In this document: one piece after another, positions 1,501-8,668 of the stretch | Layout: each line of letters starts with the position of its first letter | Numbering within the stretch: position 1 is the stretch's first letter | NCBI GenBank assembly: GCA_016789955.1 | Contig: JAEUPB010000061.1 | Coordinates: forward strand, 1 to 37,225 | Direction: 5' to 3' | DNA: 37,225 nt | From: Rubrivivax sp. | Lineage (GTDB): Bacteria > Pseudomonadota > Gammaproteobacteria > Burkholderiales > Burkholderiaceae_C | Made by a program: the position numbers and the translations under genes | The notes under the pieces: generated by a model | What the model saw: only the letters and a program-made list of their open reading frames with translations | Databases searched by the model: none | What the model was told of the DNA's origin: nothing

Positions 1501-3141
1501 ATGAACAGCCCAGACCGGCCGGTCCTCGAAGTCCACGGCCTCACCATCGGCCTGCCGGCCGGCGGCGACCGAAGCACCGCCGTGAAGGACGTGTCGTTCA
1601 CCGTCGGCCGCGGCGAGATCGTCTGCCTGGTCGGTGAGTCCGGCTCGGGCAAGTCGGTCATCGCGCAGGCCGTGATGGGGCTGCTGCCGCGCTCGCTGCC
1701 GCGCCAGTCGGGGCGCGTGCTGCTCGATGGCGAGGACCTCACCGCGGCCTCGGCGTCGCGGCTGCGCGAACTGCGCGCCACGCGCCTCTCGATGATCTTC
1801 CAGGAGCCGATGACGGCGCTGAACCCGGTGATGCGCTGCGGCGAGCAGATCGACGAGGTGCTGCGCCAGCACACGTCGCTCGGCGCGACCGAGCGGCAGC
1901 AGAAGGTGCTGGGCATCCTGCGCGAGGTGCTGCTGCCCGAGCCGGAACGCATCGCGGCGAGCTATCCGCACCAGCTCTCGGGCGGTCAGCGGCAGCGCAT
2001 CATGATCGCGATGGCGCTGGTGCTGGACCCGTTGCTGCTGATCGCCGACGAGCCCACCACCGCGCTGGACGTCACCACGCAGGCGCAGATCCTCAAGCTC
2101 ATCCTCGAGCTGCAGGGGCGCCACGGTACCGGGGTGCTGTTCATCACGCACGACTTCGGCGTGGTGGCCGAGGTGGCACACCGCGTGGCGGTGCTGCGGC
2201 TGGGCGACCTGGTGGAGATCGGCGCCAAGGCCGACGTGCTGGGCCGCCCGCAGGCCGACTACACGAAGATGCTGATCGGCTCGGTGCCCACGCTGCGCGT
2301 GGAAGCGCGCGCGCTGCCGCCCGGGGCGCCGGTGGTGCTGGCCGTGAAGAGCCTGGAGAAGACCTACGACGAGCGGCGCTGGTTCGGTCAGCGGCGCGTG
2401 GTGCATGCGGCCAAGGCGGTGAGCTTCGAGATCCGGCGCGGGCAGACGCTGGGCATCGTCGGCGAGTCGGGCTCGGGCAAGAGCACGGTGGCGCGCTGCA
2501 TCGTGCGGCTGGTGGACCCCAGCGGCGGCGAGGTGCTGCTGGCCGGCGACGGCGGGCGCAGCGACGATATCGCGCGCATGCCGCCGGCGCGCCTGCGGCC
2601 GCTGCGGCGGCGCGTGCAGATCGTGTTCCAGGACCCGTACCGCTCGCTGAACCCGCGGCTGTCGATCGGCGAGGCGCTGATCGAGGGGCCGGTGAACTAC
2701 GGCCTGGCGCGGCGCGACGCGCTGGAGCGGGCGCGCGAGCTGCTGAAGCTCGTGCGCATGGACGCCTCGGCGATGGACCGCTACCCGCATCAGTTCTCGG
2801 GCGGCCAGCGGCAGCGGCTGTGCATCGCGCGCGCGCTGATGATGGAGCCCGAGCTGCTGATCGCCGACGAGGCGGTGTCGGCGCTCGACGTCTCTGTGCA
2901 GGCGCAGGTGCTCGAGCTGCTGGCCGAGATCCGCTCGCGGCTGCAGCTGGCGATGCTCTTCATCACCCACGACCTGCGCGTGGCCTCGCAGGTGTGCGAC
3001 CAGCTCGCGGTGATGAGCCGCGGCGAGGTGGTGGAGATGGGCCCGGCGCACGAGGTGTTCGCGGCGCCCAGGCACGCCTACACGCAGGCCCTGTTCGCCG
3101 CGCTGCCCGGCCGCGACTACGCGTTCGGGGCGGGGGCTTGA
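1501..3141 (+). CDS. Fused DppD-DppF-type dipeptide ABC transporter ATP-binding protein
   Basis: This 546-residue cytoplasmic protein has two complete nucleotide-binding domains, so one gene supplies both ATPases of a peptide importer. Domain 1 has Walker A GESGSGKS at about 45-52, IFQEPMTALNP, an LSGGQRQR signature and Walker B LLIADEPTTALD. Domain 2 begins near residue 280, with Walker A GESGSGKST near 320, FQDPYRSLNP, FSGGQRQR near 433 and LLIADEAVSALD. In the second Walker B the usual DEP reads DEA. The frame is open upstream to 1228, but ATG 1501 follows GGGAGCGAGG and begins a typical DppD N-terminus, so it is preferred. The gene ends inside the start of the next gene (TTGA overlap). 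Confidence 0.92.
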   Translation: MNSPDRPVLEVHGLTIGLPAGGDRSTAVKDVSFTVGRGEIVCLVGESGSGKSVIAQAVMGLLPRSLPRQSGRVLLDGEDLTAASASRLRELRATRLSMIFQEPMTALNPVMRCGEQIDEVLRQHTSLGATERQQKVLGILREVLLPEPERIAASYPHQLSGGQRQRIMIAMALVLDPLLLIADEPTTALDVTTQAQILKLILELQGRHGTGVLFITHDFGVVAEVAHRVAVLRLGDLVEIGAKADVLGRPQADYTKMLIGSVPTLRVEARALPPGAPVVLAVKSLEKTYDERRWFGQRRVVHAAKAVSFEIRRGQTLGIVGESGSGKSTVARCIVRLVDPSGGEVLLAGDGGRSDDIARMPPARLRPLRRRVQIVFQDPYRSLNPRLSIGEALIEGPVNYGLARRDALERARELLKLVRMDASAMDRYPHQFSGGQRQRLCIARALMMEPELLIADEAVSALDVSVQAQVLELLAEIRSRLQLAMLFITHDLRVASQVCDQLAVMSRGEVVEMGPAHEVFAAPRHAYTQALFAALPGRDYAFGAGA

Positions 3142-4049
3142 CGGGATCGCAGTCCGGCGCGCCCGCCGCGGCGCGGGGCTGGCTGTGGATCCCGCCGCTG
3201 CTCGCGCTGGCCTGGGGCCTCAACTGGCCCGCGGTGAAGCTGATGCTCTCGGTGTCGCCGCCGTTCACGCTGCGCGCGGCAGGCCTGGCCGGGGCCGCGC
3301 TGCTGCTGGGCGTGGCCGCCCTCGCGCGCGGCTCCGGCCTGCTGCCGCCGCGCGCCGCGTGGCCCGGCATCGCCATCAGCAGCCTGCTGAACGTGGCGAT
3401 CTTCAACCTCGCCAGCGCGTTCGCGCAGCTGCACACCAGCACCTCGCGCGCCGCGGTGCTCACCTACGTGATGCCGGTGATCACCGTGGTGCTCGCGTGG
3501 CCGCTGCTGGGCGAGCGGCCGACGCGGCGCGCCTGGATCGCCGTGGCGCTGGGCGCCGCGGGCATCGGGCTGCTGGCGTGGCCGGCGCTCACCTCCGGCG
3601 CATCGCGGGCCGGCTCCTGGATCGGCGTGCTGCTGCCCCTGGTGGGGGCGTCGTCATGGGCCGCCGGCACGCTGGTCTCCAAGCGCTGGCCGCTCGAGGG
3701 CGACCGGCTGCTGAACCTCGCGTGGCAGCTGGTGATCGGCGCCGCCGTGGCGGCCACCGGCGCGTGGCTGGCGGGCGAACGCCCGCCCGGCCCGATCCCG
3801 CCGGCGGTGCTGGCCACCTTCGCGTTCCACGTGGTGATCGCGATGGCGGCCGGCTACGGCCTGTGGTTCATGCTTCTCGAGCGCGCCGACGCCGGCGTGT
3901 CGGCGATGACGACGCTGGCCGTGCCGGTGGTGGGCGTGGCCGGCGCGATGCTGCTGGCCGGCGAGCGGCCCGGCGCGCTGGACTGGCCCGGATTCGCGGC
4001 TGTGCTGGCCGGGGCGGCGCTGGTGATGCGGCCTCCGGCCGGTCGGTGA
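3138..4049 (+). CDS. DMT-superfamily EamA-type transporter
   Basis: This is a 303-residue membrane protein with about ten hydrophobic helices arranged as two EamA repeats, of the kind found in RhaT/YdcZ/RarD-like metabolite exporters. The first repeat begins WGLNWPAVKLML and the second GASSWAAGTLVSKRW. Both carry the family's small-residue and Pro-rich helices (VMPVITVVLAWPLLGERPT; TTLAVPVVGVAGAMLLAGERP). There is no suitable ATG near the beginning. The in-frame TTG at 3138 overlaps the stop of the ATPase gene (TTGA), which suggests translational coupling, and I chose it for that reason. The cargo cannot be deduced; amino acids or related metabolites are typical of the family. Its coupling to a peptide importer fits an overflow exporter, which is inference. 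Confidence 0.85.
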   Translation: MTGSQSGAPAAARGWLWIPPLLALAWGLNWPAVKLMLSVSPPFTLRAAGLAGAALLLGVAALARGSGLLPPRAAWPGIAISSLLNVAIFNLASAFAQLHTSTSRAAVLTYVMPVITVVLAWPLLGERPTRRAWIAVALGAAGIGLLAWPALTSGASRAGSWIGVLLPLVGASSWAAGTLVSKRWPLEGDRLLNLAWQLVIGAAVAATGAWLAGERPPGPIPPAVLATFAFHVVIAMAAGYGLWFMLLERADAGVSAMTTLAVPVVGVAGAMLLAGERPGALDWPGFAAVLAGAALVMRPPAGR

Positions 4050-4116: not shown

Positions 4117-5316
4117 ATGGACTATATCCGCCCGCAGGCCGGCGAGCTGGCGCGGCGCCTGAGCGAGCCGCGGCGCCACATCCAGGTCGTGGCCGGGCCG
4201 CGCCAGGTGGGCAAGAGCACGCTGGTGCATCAGGTCGTCGAGCGCGGCGAACTGCCGTGGCGCTGGGCCAGCGCCGACGAACCCACGCTGCGCGGCCCGT
4301 CATGGCTGGCCCAGCAGTGGGATGCCGCGAGGCTGGCCGCCCGTGACGCCGCGGCGCGGGGCGGCGCCGTGCTCGTGCTCGACGAGGTGCACAAGCTCGA
4401 CGGCTGGTCGGAGGCGGTCAAGCGCCTGTGGGACGAGGACACCCGGCAGCGCACGCCGCTGAAGGTCGTGCTGCTGGGCTCGTCGCCGCTGCTGGTGGCG
4501 CGCGGCCTCACCGAGAGCCTGGCCGGGCGCTTCGAGATGCTGCACCTGCGGCACTGGTCGTACGCCGAGATGAAGTCGGCGTTCGATTGGCCGCTGGCGT
4601 CGTACGTGTTCCACGGCGGTTATCCCGGCGCCGCGCCGCTCGTGAACGAACCGGTGCGTTGGGCGCGCTACGTGATGGACTCCCTGGTGGAGACCTCGAT
4701 CTCGCGCGACGTGCTGCTGCTGACGCGCATCGACAAGCCCGCGCTGATGCGGCGGCTGTTCGAGCTGGCCTGCAGCTACTCGGGCCAGGTGCTGTCGTAC
4801 ACGAAGATGCTGGGACCGCTGCAGGACGCGGGCAACACCACCACGCTGGCGCACTACCTCGATCTGCTCGGCGGCGCGGGGCTCGTCACCGGGCTGCCGA
4901 AGTACCACGGTGATGCGGCACGCAGCCGGGGGTCGATGCCCAAGCTGCAGGTCTACAACACGGCACTGATGACGGCACCGAGCGGGCTCACGATCGAGGC
5001 CGCGCGCGCCGACGCCTCGCTGTGGGGCCGGCTCGTGGAGTCGGCGGTGGGGGCGCATCTGGCCAACGCCGCCGCGGCAGGCGTGACCGAGCTGTACTAC
5101 TGGCGCGAGCGCAACCGGGAGGTCGACTACGTGCTGCGCCGCGCCGGTGTGGTCGTGGCGATCGAGGTCAAGAGCGGCCGGGCGCCGCAGGCCCTGCCGG
5201 GCATGGCGGCCTTCGACGCCGCATTCCGGCCGCACCGCCGCCTGCTCGTGGGAGGCGACGGCATCCCGCTGGAGGAGTTCCTCGGCGCTCCGGTCGAGGA
5301 GTGGCTGCGACGCTGA
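4117..5316 (+). CDS. AAA ATPase with C-terminal DUF4143 (nuclease-like) domain
   Basis: This is a 399-residue soluble protein. The N-terminal AAA_14-type P-loop domain has Walker A GPRQVGKST at about 27-35 and Walker B VLVLDEVHKLDGW at about 85-97. A LLGSSPLLVARGLTESLAGRF sensor region follows. The C-terminal DUF4143 domain ends in REVDYVLRRAGVVVAIEVKSG (about 337-357). Its D...E-x-K spacing resembles PD-(D/E)xK nuclease-fold proteins, although nuclease activity is unproven for this family. These genes are common, patchily distributed, often horizontally transferred and of unknown physiological role. The gene stands alone, flanked by unrelated genes, and the repeat at 4088-4109 is its most likely control site. 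The ATG at 4117 gives the canonical short N-terminus before the P-loop. Confidence 0.92.
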   Translation: MDYIRPQAGELARRLSEPRRHIQVVAGPRQVGKSTLVHQVVERGELPWRWASADEPTLRGPSWLAQQWDAARLAARDAAARGGAVLVLDEVHKLDGWSEAVKRLWDEDTRQRTPLKVVLLGSSPLLVARGLTESLAGRFEMLHLRHWSYAEMKSAFDWPLASYVFHGGYPGAAPLVNEPVRWARYVMDSLVETSISRDVLLLTRIDKPALMRRLFELACSYSGQVLSYTKMLGPLQDAGNTTTLAHYLDLLGGAGLVTGLPKYHGDAARSRGSMPKLQVYNTALMTAPSGLTIEAARADASLWGRLVESAVGAHLANAAAAGVTELYYWRERNREVDYVLRRAGVVVAIEVKSGRAPQALPGMAAFDAAFRPHRRLLVGGDGIPLEEFLGAPVEEWLRR

Positions 5317-5337
5317 TCGCGGTGCCTCTGGGCGCGC

Positions 5338-5553
5338 TCACGCGCCGATCGGCAACAACTGCGGCTCGGACGGGAAGCGCCCCGTCTGGTACTTGGAGTA
5401 CGCCACGACACCGTCGACGACGATGTCGAACTGGCCGGACTTGCCGACCTGAATCTCGACGGGGCCGCGGCCCCGGGATTCGAACCAGGCCTTCACACGG
5501 AGGGCCTCGGGTTTGTAGCCTCAGCCGGCGCAGTAGTGGATGACGATGCTCAT
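5338..5553 (-). CDS. SelW-like (Rdx family) selenoprotein with in-frame UGA/Sec at residue 11
   Basis: Read on the minus strand from ATG 5553, the frame runs to TGA at 5340-5338, with a single internal TGA at 5523-5521. If that TGA is read as selenocysteine (U), the 71-residue product begins MSIVIHYCAGUGYKPEALR and later contains SGQFDIVVDGVVAYSK and GRFPSEPQL. This matches the SelT/SelW/SelH (Rdx) domain: a beta strand, the redox motif C-x-x-U (C8, U11) followed by GYK, and the FD/E-V-V-x-G...SK core. Human SelW has YCGAUGYK at the same place. The family has a thioredoxin-like fold and is thought to act in thiol redox reactions. Similarity continues in the same frame on both sides of the TGA, which argues against frameshift or decay. 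A hairpin follows the TGA. No strong Shine-Dalgarno sequence is seen. Confidence 0.87.
5483..5513 (-). promoter_or_regulatory. Candidate bacterial SECIS hairpin downstream of the SelW UGA
   Basis: Starting 8 nt after the TGA, the minus-strand RNA can fold as AACC, a 2-nt bulge (CG), AGGCC, an 11-nt loop, GGCCT, GGTT. That is nine base pairs interrupted by one bulge. The apical loop (CUCCGUGUGAA) lies 19-29 nt after the UGA and contains exposed G and GU residues. Bacterial SECIS elements are hairpins immediately downstream of the UGA, inside the coding region, with G/U in the apical loop that binds SelB. Position, size and loop composition agree with that description. The fold was drawn by hand, and part of the sequence is constrained by coding. 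Confidence 0.6.
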
Positions 5554-5635
5554 GGCGGTGCAGGCATGGGGTGGATCAACGGAGTGGGGCGGATGCTAAG
5601 CGCGTGCCGACAGCCCTGCCGGCAGAATGGGCCCC

Positions 5636-7138
5636 ATGACCCGCCTCTTCATCGCCGGCTACCAGCACGAGACCAACACCTTCGCGCCGAGCCTGGCGGA
5701 CTGGGCCGCCTTCACGCGCGGCGACTCCTTCCCCGCCTACCTGCGCGGCGCCGAGATGGTCGAGACGCTGCGCGGCGTGAACATCCCGGTGGCCGGCGTG
5801 ATCGACGCGGCGCGGGCCCACGGCTGGCAGCTCGTGCCCTCGGGCTGGGCCGGCGCGATCCCGTCGTCGTACGTCACGCGCGACGCCTTCGAGCGCATCG
5901 CCGCGGCGATCGACGAGGACCTCCGCGCCGCGCTGGCCTCGCCGGCCGGGCTCGACGCCGTGTACCTCGACCTGCACGGTGCCGCGGTGGCCGAGCACGC
6001 CGACGACAGCGAGGGCGAGTTGCTGGCCCGCGTGCGGGCGCGCGTCGGCCCCGCGATGCCGATCGTCGCCAGCCTCGACCTGCATGCCAACGTCACCGAG
6101 CGCATGCTGCGCGAGGCGGATGCGCTGGTCAGCTACCGCACCTACCCGCACGTCGACATGGCCGACACCGGCACGCTGGCTGCGCAGCTGATCGAACGCC
6201 GCCTGAAGCTCGGCCGGCGCGAGGCGCAGCACGCGCGGCGGCTGCCGTTCCTGATCCCGCTGAACGCGCAGAGCACGTGGATGCAGCCGGCGCAAGGCCT
6301 GTACGAACGGCTCGTGGCGCTCGACCGCGAGCACGGCACCTGCTCGAGCTTCTGCATGGGCTTCCCGGCGTCGGACTTCGCCGAGTGCGCGCCGATGGTG
6401 TGGAGCCACGGCGAGCGCGCCCGTGCCGTGGCCGAGGCGCTGTACGACGCGACGGCCGAGCCCTCGCAGTGGCAGCAGCAGCTGCTCGCGCCGCGCGACG
6501 CGGTGGCGCAGGCGATGGCGCTGGCCGAGGGTGCCGACAAGCCCGTGGTGATCGCCGACACGCAGGACAACCCCGGCGCCGGCGGCGACAGCAACACCAG
6601 CGGCATGCTGCATGCGCTGGTCGCGCAGGGCGCCGGCCGGAAGTTCCCGGGGCAGGTGGCGCTCGGGCTGCTCTACGACCCCGAGGCCGCGCGCGCCGCG
6701 CATGCCGCGGGCGTCGGTGCCGAGATCGACCTCGCGCTGGGCACGCAGGTGCCCACGTTCGCCGGCCCGAGCGACCCGCCGCTGCGCGGCCGCTGCAAGG
6801 TGCTGGCGCTGGCCGACGGCACCTGCACGCTGGCCGGGCCGATGATGCACGGCCTCACCGTGCGCCTCGGCCCGAGTGCCTGCCTGGAGATCGACGGCGT
6901 GCGCGTGGCGGTGGTCAGCGGCAAGAAGCAGCTGCTCGACCGCGCGCTGCTGCGCATGGTGGGCGTGCACACCGAGCAGCTGCGCATCGTCGTCGTGAAG
7001 AGCTCCAACCACTTCCGCGCCGACTTCCAGCCCAACGCCAGCCACGTGCTCGTGGCCAAGGCGCCGGGGCCGATGGCGGCCGATCCGGCCGACCTGCCGT
7101 GGACGAAGCTGCCGGCGTCGACACGCCGGCGGCCGTGA
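5636..7138 (+). CDS. M81 family (MlrC-like) metalloprotein
   Basis: This 500-residue protein belongs to the M81/MlrC family, named after microcystinase C, which cleaves linearised microcystin. Most members have unknown substrates, presumably peptides or amides. The N-terminal DUF1485 part begins MTRLFIAGYQHETNTFAP and continues to LDLHGAAV (111-118). SLDLHANVT (D148, H150) and YPHVD (H172) supply the expected metal ligands. The C-terminal part contains DTQDNPGAGGDSNTSG and SSNHFRADF. An ATG lies three codons upstream at 5627, but the start at 5636 gives the family's usual N-terminus. The gene is divergent from the selenoprotein gene and convergent with a paralogue. The nearby peptide importer suggests a role in processing an imported amide or peptide, which is inference. 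Confidence 0.9.
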   Translation: MTRLFIAGYQHETNTFAPSLADWAAFTRGDSFPAYLRGAEMVETLRGVNIPVAGVIDAARAHGWQLVPSGWAGAIPSSYVTRDAFERIAAAIDEDLRAALASPAGLDAVYLDLHGAAVAEHADDSEGELLARVRARVGPAMPIVASLDLHANVTERMLREADALVSYRTYPHVDMADTGTLAAQLIERRLKLGRREAQHARRLPFLIPLNAQSTWMQPAQGLYERLVALDREHGTCSSFCMGFPASDFAECAPMVWSHGERARAVAEALYDATAEPSQWQQQLLAPRDAVAQAMALAEGADKPVVIADTQDNPGAGGDSNTSGMLHALVAQGAGRKFPGQVALGLLYDPEAARAAHAAGVGAEIDLALGTQVPTFAGPSDPPLRGRCKVLALADGTCTLAGPMMHGLTVRLGPSACLEIDGVRVAVVSGKKQLLDRALLRMVGVHTEQLRIVVVKSSNHFRADFQPNASHVLVAKAPGPMAADPADLPWTKLPASTRRRP

Positions 7139-7177: not shown

Positions 7178-8668
7178 TCACATCGGATCCAGCGGGTACA
7201 TCGGCCGGCGCAGCTTCCTGAACGCCAGCGCGTCGTAGTCCGACGTGCAGACGCCGGTGCCGGCGCACTCGACCACCGCGTGCGCCAGGCTCTTCAACCC
7301 CGCGCGCCAGTGCACGCGGCTCTTGAGCATCAGCAGGTCCAGCCGCTCGGGCGCCAGGCCGACGGCCTGGAACGCGGCCAGGTCGTGCGGCTCCACGTGC
7401 TGCGAGATCACGACGATCTGCACGCCGCCCACCTCGAACAGCGCGGTGGGCCCCATGTGGTTGGTCTCGCCGGCGGCCATCGGGCCGCGGTTGCGGTAGC
7501 GGCCGTCGCAGATCAGCCGCACGCGGCCGGTGACCGTGCGCGGCGCGCCCTTGAGTCCGAGTGACGGCATGTCGAGCTTGCCGCCCAGCGCGAGCGTGAG
7601 CTCGGCGCCGACCCCCGCGGCAATCATCCGCTGCACCGCGCCGGGGTCGTAGACCGCAAACGCCACGGCGTTGCGCGCGCCGGCGTCGAGCAGCGCGCCG
7701 AGCACCGTCATCGTGTCCATCGTGCCGCCGGAGGCGCAGTTGTCGCTGTGGTCCAGCAGCACCACCGGGCCGCTGCCGGCGGGCTTGTCGGCGGCGATGC
7801 GCATCGCGCGGGCGATGGAATCGGCCAGCGGCTCGATCGTGTAGACGAACTTCGCGCGCTGCTCCCAGGCCATCGCCAGCAGCTCGTCGCACCAGCGGCG
7901 CGCCAGCGCCGCGTCGCCGTCGGTGACGACCACTGCCGACAGCCCGGCGTTGAGGATGTCGGCGTTGGGGAAGCCGACGAAGACGCTGGCCGCCAGCGCC
8001 CCTTGCGCTTCCATCTCGCGGCAACGCGCCTGCAGCTCGCGATTCGGAGAGTCGTCGGTGCCCTGGCGCATCACGTGCGGCAGCATCGCGGCGCGACCCC
8101 AGGCCATCGTCGGGTTCGCGTGGCCCTGCAGCTTCGCGAGCAGCGCGCGGCCGGCGCGCAGCCCGGTGCCGTGCATGTCCACGTGCGGGTAGGTCTGGTA
8201 GCCGGCGATCGCGTCGGCGTGCTCGCCCATCGCGTCGTAGAGGTTGGTGTGCATGTCCAGCGCCACGCCGATCGGCACGCCGGGCACCGCGGCGCGGATG
8301 CGGCGCAGCAGCTCGCCCTCGCCGTCGTCGTGGGTCTGCGTGACCATCGCGCCGTGCAGGTCGAGCAGCACGCCGTCGCAGCCGGCGCGCACCGCGTCGA
8401 CGATGCGGCCGGCGATGTGCTCGTAGGCGTCGTCGTGCACCGGGCCGCTGGGCCAGGCGGCCGCGGCGATCGGCACCACCACCTCGGCCCCGGCGGCCTC
8501 GGCCAGCTCGAGGAAGGCGCCGATCGCCGAGCCGGTGCCGCGGTAGGCGGCGATCGCCGCGGCGCCCTCGGGCGGCGGCGAGGTGCCGTCGCCGAAGCGC
8601 GCCAGCGGCGTGGGCACCGGCGAGTAGGTGTTGGTCTCGTGCTTCATCTGCGCGATGACGAGCTTCAT
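7178..8668 (-). CDS. M81 family (MlrC-like) metalloprotein, second paralogue
   Basis: This 496-residue protein has the same domain order as the M81 gene it converges with. It begins MKLVIAQMKHETNTYSPVPT, then has LLDLHGAMV near 101-109, ALDMHTNL (D138, H140) and YPHVDMHGTG (H162), which are the expected metal-binding positions. The C-terminal DUF1485 half has DHSDNCASGGTMDTM and SRVHWRAGLK. The two paralogues are clearly diverged rather than a recent duplication, for example DMHTN against DLHAN and QMKHETNTYSP against GYQHETNTFAP, so they probably act on different substrates. The start ATG at 8668 follows a purine-rich stretch and matches the family N-terminus. The gene downstream on the same strand side (8770 onward) belongs to a separate efflux operon. 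Confidence 0.9.
   Translation of the reverse strand: MKLVIAQMKHETNTYSPVPTPLARFGDGTSPPPEGAAAIAAYRGTGSAIGAFLELAEAAGAEVVVPIAAAAWPSGPVHDDAYEHIAGRIVDAVRAGCDGVLLDLHGAMVTQTHDDGEGELLRRIRAAVPGVPIGVALDMHTNLYDAMGEHADAIAGYQTYPHVDMHGTGLRAGRALLAKLQGHANPTMAWGRAAMLPHVMRQGTDDSPNRELQARCREMEAQGALAASVFVGFPNADILNAGLSAVVVTDGDAALARRWCDELLAMAWEQRAKFVYTIEPLADSIARAMRIAADKPAGSGPVVLLDHSDNCASGGTMDTMTVLGALLDAGARNAVAFAVYDPGAVQRMIAAGVGAELTLALGGKLDMPSLGLKGAPRTVTGRVRLICDGRYRNRGPMAAGETNHMGPTALFEVGGVQIVVISQHVEPHDLAAFQAVGLAPERLDLLMLKSRVHWRAGLKSLAHAVVECAGTGVCTSDYDALAFRKLRRPMYPLDPM

Follow-up and report, generated by a model that had tools for sequence, protein, structure and literature searches.

The SelW-like frame and its match to the Rdx family

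The analyzed window of 37,225 nucleotides is a contig in its full length (C107) and comes from a draft Rubrivivax sp. genome (5.26 Mb, 116 contigs, 79.6% complete, 2% contamination). On its minus strand, between an ATPase gene and a metallopeptidase gene (Table 1), we found a frame that starts with an ATG at 5553, terminates with a TGA at 5340-5338 and contains a single internal TGA. Its product reads MSIVIHYCAGUGYKPEALRVKAWFESRGRGPVEIQVGKSGQFDIVVDGVVAYSKYQTGRFPSEPQLLPIGA, with U for the internal TGA. The first-pass annotation had proposed a minus-strand frame of 71 codons with one in-frame TGA at this place, encoding a SelW-like selenoprotein, and its coordinates, strand and frame were all borne out.

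Table 1. Features of the SelW-like locus and its two flanking genes (window coordinates)
Feature	Position	Strand	Remarks
SelW-like (Rdx family) selenoprotein gene, predicted	5338..5553	minus	71 aa, Sec at codon 11
In-frame TGA, codon 11, predicted Sec; CAGU = CxxU motif	5521..5523	minus	based on relatives and genomic sel genes
TGC = Cys8, partner redox residue in CxxU	5530..5532	minus	Cys codon in 40/41 related loci
Predicted bacterial SECIS hairpin	5487..5507	minus	stem 5507-5500 with 5494-5487, 5-nt loop 5499-5495
Invariant G, loop base 2 of the hairpin	5498	minus	41/41 sequences
AAA_14/DUF4143 ATPase, neighbour outside the system	4117..5316	plus	convergent with the SelW-like gene
M81 family metallopeptidase (MlrC-like), neighbour outside the system	5627..7138	plus	divergent from the SelW-like gene

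The internal TGA had been described as standing exactly where Rdx proteins carry selenocysteine (Sec), with family similarity continuing on either side of it, and both points were confirmed by comparison with the family. Codon 11 aligns with the second redox residue of the CxxU/CxxC motif in relatives, and both family models suggested for the check span the TGA with scores above their cut-offs: Pfam Rdx PF10262 (E 3.2e-12, 46.9 bits, cut-off 22.6), whose alignment covers both flanks of the TGA, and TIGR02174 CXXU_selWTH (43.6 bits, cut-off 34.2). The Campylobacter equivalog model NF041051 gave 57.9 bits for the same frame, which is under its cut-off of 88. When the raw DNA of the whole genome was searched for Rdx proteins with stops tolerated, this frame, reported with “1 TGA” within, was the sole match over the cut-off.

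DNA of high G+C content gives many long frames, and the window holds 141 of at least 80 aa if frames running off its ends are counted. It has therefore to be considered that the frame may be open merely by chance, lying as it does across from the plus-strand frame 5022-5543, but in view of the two family models passing their cut-offs and of relatives in several phyla that are 31-77% identical over the aligned length, we regard this explanation as exceedingly improbable.

Conservation of the TGA among relatives

When genome contigs were scanned with a profile built from three TGA-form proteins, 41 loci were obtained, and every one of them has TGA at codon 11 (41/41). This count describes the clade found in this way and not Rdx proteins at large, since the profile was made from TGA forms; the peptide pattern that covers codon 11 had Cys at this place and should thus not have favoured TGA. 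Ten of the loci are labelled Betaproteobacteria, Burkholderiales or Rubrivivax (L026-L035) and one Reyranella, while further labels include Deltaproteobacteria, Polyangia, Myxococcales, Binataceae, Vicinamibacterales, Planctomycetota and Krumholzibacteriota, among others. The nearest relative (L026) comes from a bin that is itself labelled Rubrivivax sp.

Within the order, Rdx-like matches were found in 66 of 399 searched genomes, the genome under study included. Most of these matches lack a TGA, and 14 of the 66 contain an internal one. Thirty loci were fetched from the order: all 13 TGA-bearing loci have the TGA at codon 11, and 14 of the 17 stop-free loci have Cys at the corresponding place, the remaining three having been missed by the motif filter. 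Cys at the same codon was also seen in ten further loci (L003-L012). The Cys forms that were read are longer, carry YCTQC-like motifs and represent a separate sequence group in the order. In five of the 52 genomes with a stop-free match, the alignment is restricted to positions 14-61 or 17-61, and these matches are possibly not Rdx proteins. Two genomes (G076 and G211) combine one TGA-form and one stop-free Rdx match each.

The same order also contains a second, remoter TGA-form Rdx group (L074, L075, L076, L077, L080 and L089), which reads GGVFEVE, GGVFEVD or GGVFDVA where the first group has GQFDIVV. A separate observation concerns a Planctomycetota bin (CANEYR010000004.1; L065:5022-5033), in which the SelW-like gene reads HUTSUGF and thus has a TGA at both redox positions (UxxU). 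Being a single locus of 41, this may be an error; the gene retains the SECIS-like hairpin. Reviews of 2022 and 2026 give Rdx as CxxU in their entries for the family (PMC9312934, PMC13188914).

Downstream of the TGA, dN was lower than dS in 15/15 comparisons with relatives, although dS exceeded 1, and is hence rough, in eight of the 15. Against the nearest relative, this part of the gene gave a dN of 0.13 and a dS of 0.58. In the nine codons upstream of the TGA, a stretch too short to judge by, pN exceeded pS in 3/15 comparisons.

A hairpin downstream of the TGA

The TGA is followed by a SECIS-like hairpin with 21 nt between the TGA and the loop, so that the loop starts 22 nt after the TGA. In the window's own sequence, seven of the eight stem pairs are formed and one is a C-A mismatch. 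Conservation was assessed in an alignment of the window with 40 of the 41 scan loci (A4; 40 distinct rows), from which L063 was omitted for its one-codon insertion, and in which the hairpin corresponds to columns 17-24 pairing with 30-37. Standard pairs made up 89.1% of the stem cells, compared to 65.8 ± 1.9% after shuffling of partners (0/500 as high). The covariation score was 0.592 versus 0.209 in shuffles, and 80 cells were changed on both sides where 30 were expected (0/500 shuffles). Six stem pairs show changes in both partners, which is not exceptional, as 62/500 shuffles reached this number. Sliding the partners by 1-3 columns lowered the pairing to 35-45%, a control that favours the chosen register because this register was picked after seeing these sequences fold. 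RNAalifold picked seven of the eight stem pairs.

Since the DNA of the hairpin is also protein-coding, synonymous recodings were used as a further comparison, with codon usage pooled over the 41 genes and with statistics that ignore relatedness. The 292/328 pairs observed stand against 228 ± 5.6 expected, and the highest value among 2000 recodings was 247. For the 12 closest sequences (alignment A2: the window and L026-L036), 79/96 pairs were formed compared to 61.6 ± 3.0 in recodings; covariation among these 12 showed no excess over shuffles. Judged alone, the window's hairpin with its 7/8 pairs lies within chance (P 0.14).

A set of 16 sequences was composed of the window, L026-L036, L069, L071, L072 and L073; L067, L068 and L070 were omitted as duplicates of other rows, and L074-L077, L080 and L089 were left aside as more distant. 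Among the 58 five-codon windows of this set, codons 17-21 (GCC CTC CGK GYG ARG) show the strongest synonymous conservation (0.95 vs 0.42 expected). Watson-Crick pairing between the third positions of codons 16 and 22 is seen in 9/11 scorable sequences (P 0.06). The total folding energy of the 39 nt downstream of the TGA, which takes in all structure and not the single hairpin, was unremarkable against synonymous recodings of the 16 sequences, with a mean z of -0.15 and a range from +2.0 (L033) to -3.3 (L073). A search against Rfam gave three matches, all far under their gathering scores, which we do not count against a SECIS. As far as can be judged from the sequence, the element fits a bacterial SECIS: a stem-loop just 3' of the UGA, here with an eight-pair stem, and a small apical loop containing a G.

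Selenocysteine machinery of the genome

The first-pass annotation had also predicted that the organism should possess SelA, SelB, SelC and SelD, and all four were found. The genes selC (tRNA-Sec; 76.8 bits, C48:56960-57051), selB (446 bits, C48:57086-58966) and selA (582 bits, C48:59055-60395) follow one another on a single contig, all in minus orientation, while selD (424 bits, C8:16453-17379) is located on another. ARAGORN called selC as tRNA-SeC with the anticodon TCA. A lack of selB or tRNA-Sec had been named as a finding that would speak against a selenoprotein; both are present on contig C48.

A formate dehydrogenase alpha frame of the same genome (L100; G000:C4:54155-57118) likewise contains an in-frame TGA, at about position 54,597 of contig C4 in the context LDTQARIUHAPTVSSLG, and we take this site (ARIUHAPTV) to be the usual formate dehydrogenase Sec position. 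The family match is fragmented, the first piece, with one TGA inside, reaching 187 bits and every piece remaining under the family cut-off, and the frame is a candidate for a second selenoprotein. Given the complete set of sel genes and this TGA, the Sec machinery probably has another client besides the SelW-like gene. A full-length, stop-free formate dehydrogenase alpha match is found near the TGA-bearing frame (C4:48004-50073).

With this machinery in place, we weighed two further explanations of the internal TGA. It could have arisen from TGC or TGT, either by decay of an Rdx gene of the Cys type or by an error in base calling, and the patchy distribution in the genus, where the SelW-like gene was found in 1/71 other genomes, as well as the draft state of the genome (79.6% complete) would be compatible with this. 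However, the TGA occupies the same codon in all 41 loci, the sequence downstream of it is under purifying selection, the hairpin is conserved and the genome encodes the Sec machinery, which makes decay or error highly improbable. The strain-specific stop in a decaying gene that the first-pass annotation had considered as an alternative is thus not what the aligned relatives display: they share the TGA at codon 11 and, following it, the SECIS-like hairpin. Alternatively, the TGA could be read through with another residue, either by a near-cognate tRNA or by insertion of Cys via the Sec machinery under selenium scarcity. Stop-free relatives carry Cys at codon 11, so Cys is functional in this protein family and its insertion would be tolerated, but tRNA-Sec, selA, selB, selD and a properly placed SECIS-like hairpin point to Sec, and we consider insertion of another residue to be very improbable.

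Association of TGA-form genes with tRNA-Sec

The presence of tRNA-Sec was scored in 15 genomes with a TGA-form gene and in a sample of 21 from the 52 genomes whose Rdx match is stop-free, none of the 21 having a partial match. The best scores fell into two groups, at least 68 bits and at most 52 bits, and the latter were taken as tRNA-Ser-like background. On this basis, tRNA-Sec is present in 13/15 TGA-form genomes vs 3/21 sampled stop-free-form genomes (Fisher P 2e-5, which is a guide only because the genomes are related to one another). Two TGA-form genomes, G130 (96% complete) and G428 (83% complete, 6% contamination), deviate in showing no tRNA-Sec above background and no selB over the cut-off; the draft bins may have gaps here, contigs may have been misplaced, or the genes may have outlasted a machinery that was lost. 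In a genome of the same genus (G054), a partial selB match (144.7 bits, positions 276-580) lies beside the tRNA-Sec but is under the cut-off.

Predicted fold, decoding and redox role

A further alignment (A3) comprises the window's protein and 33 of the 41 scan loci. An AlphaFold2 model built with 34 sequences, in which Cys stands for Sec, reached a pLDDT of 94.9. The modelled order is a strand (3-7), the CxxU turn (C8, U11) and a helix (14-26). Foldseek returned 22 PDB matches at E <= 0.001, which belong to seven entries (2fa8, 2p0g, 2obk, 2ojl, 2oka, 3dex and mouse SelW 2npb); plain thioredoxins appeared only from E 0.04 upwards. By sequence, the best PDB match was MIEN1/C17orf37 (2ljk; E 3.5e-7), followed by a weak match to mouse SelW (0.017) and by Atu0228 (2fa8; 0.025). 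Scores above the family-model cut-offs, a CxxU motif between the first strand and the first long helix, and the modelled Rdx fold all place the protein in the Rdx family.

The six bacterial structures resemble the predicted fold with TMq values of 0.70-0.85 at an identity of only 22-31%. Two of them are titled selenoprotein W-related (2fa8, 2p0g) and one putative Se binding (2obk); the three whose titles give no family (2ojl, 2oka, 3dex) are presumably Rdx proteins as well. We assume that all six have Cys where the protein described here has Sec. Mouse SelW (TMq 0.68) and MIEN1 (TMq 0.69) have a similar fold. In eukaryotes, SECIS elements are located in the 3' UTR (PMC1088965), whereas the hairpin found here is within the reading frame.

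If decoding follows the pathway established for bacteria, Sec-tRNA(Sec) would be made by SelA and SelD, and SelB would bring it to the ribosome while binding the hairpin about 20 nt past the UGA, and UGA 11 would then be decoded as Sec and not as a stop. Judging from the fold and the motif, the product would be a small thioredoxin-like protein in which Cys8-x-x-Sec11 cycles between the selenol/thiol and the selenenylsulphide state. The account of the family in PMC1088965 describes its function as unclear, while noting that CxxU suggests a redox role and that an interaction with glutathione has been found. On balance, we favour a role as a small thiol-disulphide oxidoreductase (selenol-disulphide), possibly linked to glutathione, as the model and the motif would suggest.

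Relation to known SelW-like selenoproteins

The frame with its family match across the TGA, the TGA conserved in 41/41 loci, the SECIS-like hairpin after it and the full set of sel genes in the genome together support the reading as a SelW-like selenoprotein. We estimate a probability of about 95% that positions 5338-5553 represent a functional gene for such a protein of 71 residues, with UGA 11 predicted to be decoded as Sec.

The gene is an added member of an already described bacterial selenoprotein family. Several surveys and reviews describe SelW-like proteins as one of the selenoprotein families of prokaryotes or include them in their lists (PMC1088965, PMC1794560, PMC2398784, PMC9312934, PMC13188914), and the bacterial SelW-like or SELENOW-like proteins, as characterized there, share with the present one the PF10262 Rdx family, the CxxU motif and a SECIS-like stem-loop after the UGA. 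The entries in the reviews of 2022 (PMC9312934) and 2026 (PMC13188914) list them as PF10262 with CxxU. In the Sargasso Sea set, SelW-like was reported as the most abundant selenoprotein family with 48 genes (PMC1088965); the GOS survey reports 427 SelW-like genes with CxxU (PMC2398784), and the table of a 2006 survey counts 10 (PMC1794560). The same 2006 survey states that, in organisms which use Sec, Cys homologues of SelW-like proteins are very few or absent (PMC1794560). As few selenoproteins are reported to be as widespread as this family in samples of marine microbes (PMC2398784), the discovery is a modest one.

The passages on SelW-like proteins in these accounts name Sargasso and GOS sequences, Deltaproteobacteria, Clostridia and Symbiobacterium, whereas the present gene belongs to Burkholderiales, which are not named in those passages. 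Our literature search, whose coverage was incomplete, gave no paper title on a SelW-like selenoprotein of Burkholderiales, and we do not claim priority. With this finding, the selenoproteome of Burkholderiales bins gains a gene that is easily overlooked. Moreover, the 41 loci, with TGA and never Cys at codon 11 and with a covarying hairpin, are well suited for testing what SelB requires of a bacterial SECIS, and also why this small redox protein retains Sec.

A more far-reaching view, which we put forward as speculative and rather doubtful, is that the GQFD[IV][VL]VD clade constitutes a Sec-only branch of Rdx proteins that has given rise to no Cys form: a stand-alone redox gene moving between Sec-equipped genomes, with a SECIS hairpin inside the gene in one fixed register and with UxxU in one Planctomycetota bin. 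If this were true, Sec would be essential to the chemistry of the protein and not merely better than Cys.

Genomic context and origin of the contig

The rarity of the gene in the genus and the 2% contamination of the bin raise the question of whether the contig was misbinned from another organism, in which case the Sec genes of this genome would not be the partners of the SelW-like gene. Against this, the 14 best foreign matches of the neighbouring M81 gene are all from the same genus, at 69-79% identity and nearly full length. In addition, four of six same-genus M81 regions (L103-L106) have the permease and/or ABC transporter genes of the window's left-hand part upstream of M81, as here. Based on these same-genus matches and the conserved transporter order, the contig looks native to this genome, and we judge misbinning to be very improbable. 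The permease and ABC transporter labels of the left-hand genes are our own assumption.

No SelW match at E <= 1e-4 was present in the six same-genus M81 regions (L102-L107). The AAA_14/DUF4143 ATPase upstream of M81 was also unmatched in these regions, L105 having a 24% identical one on the other side. In L104, a frame of 346 aa lies between the ABC transporter and M81 genes; we presume it to be a histone-deacetylase-type protein from the way it reads. The stretch with the SelW-like gene could have been gained locally in this lineage, or it could have been lost in the others. Carriage by a plasmid or phage was considered as well and is unsupported, as no relative was found at E <= 1e-3 among plasmid and phage records.

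Comparison of five window proteins with 16 TGA-form loci gave three weak matches (24-36% identity). Ten neighbouring frames in relatives, chosen by length, comprise five without a Pfam family, some of them perhaps spurious, and five with families of which none is shared. Without a recurring neighbour gene, the function is not readable from the context. Apart from this, the window contains two convergent M81 (MlrC-like) genes side by side (5627-7138, plus strand; 7178-8668, minus strand) that are only 36% identical to each other. Both are kept in the same orientation in a further genome (G024), where a transporter-like gene with 55% identity to the window frame 3000-4046 lies between them.
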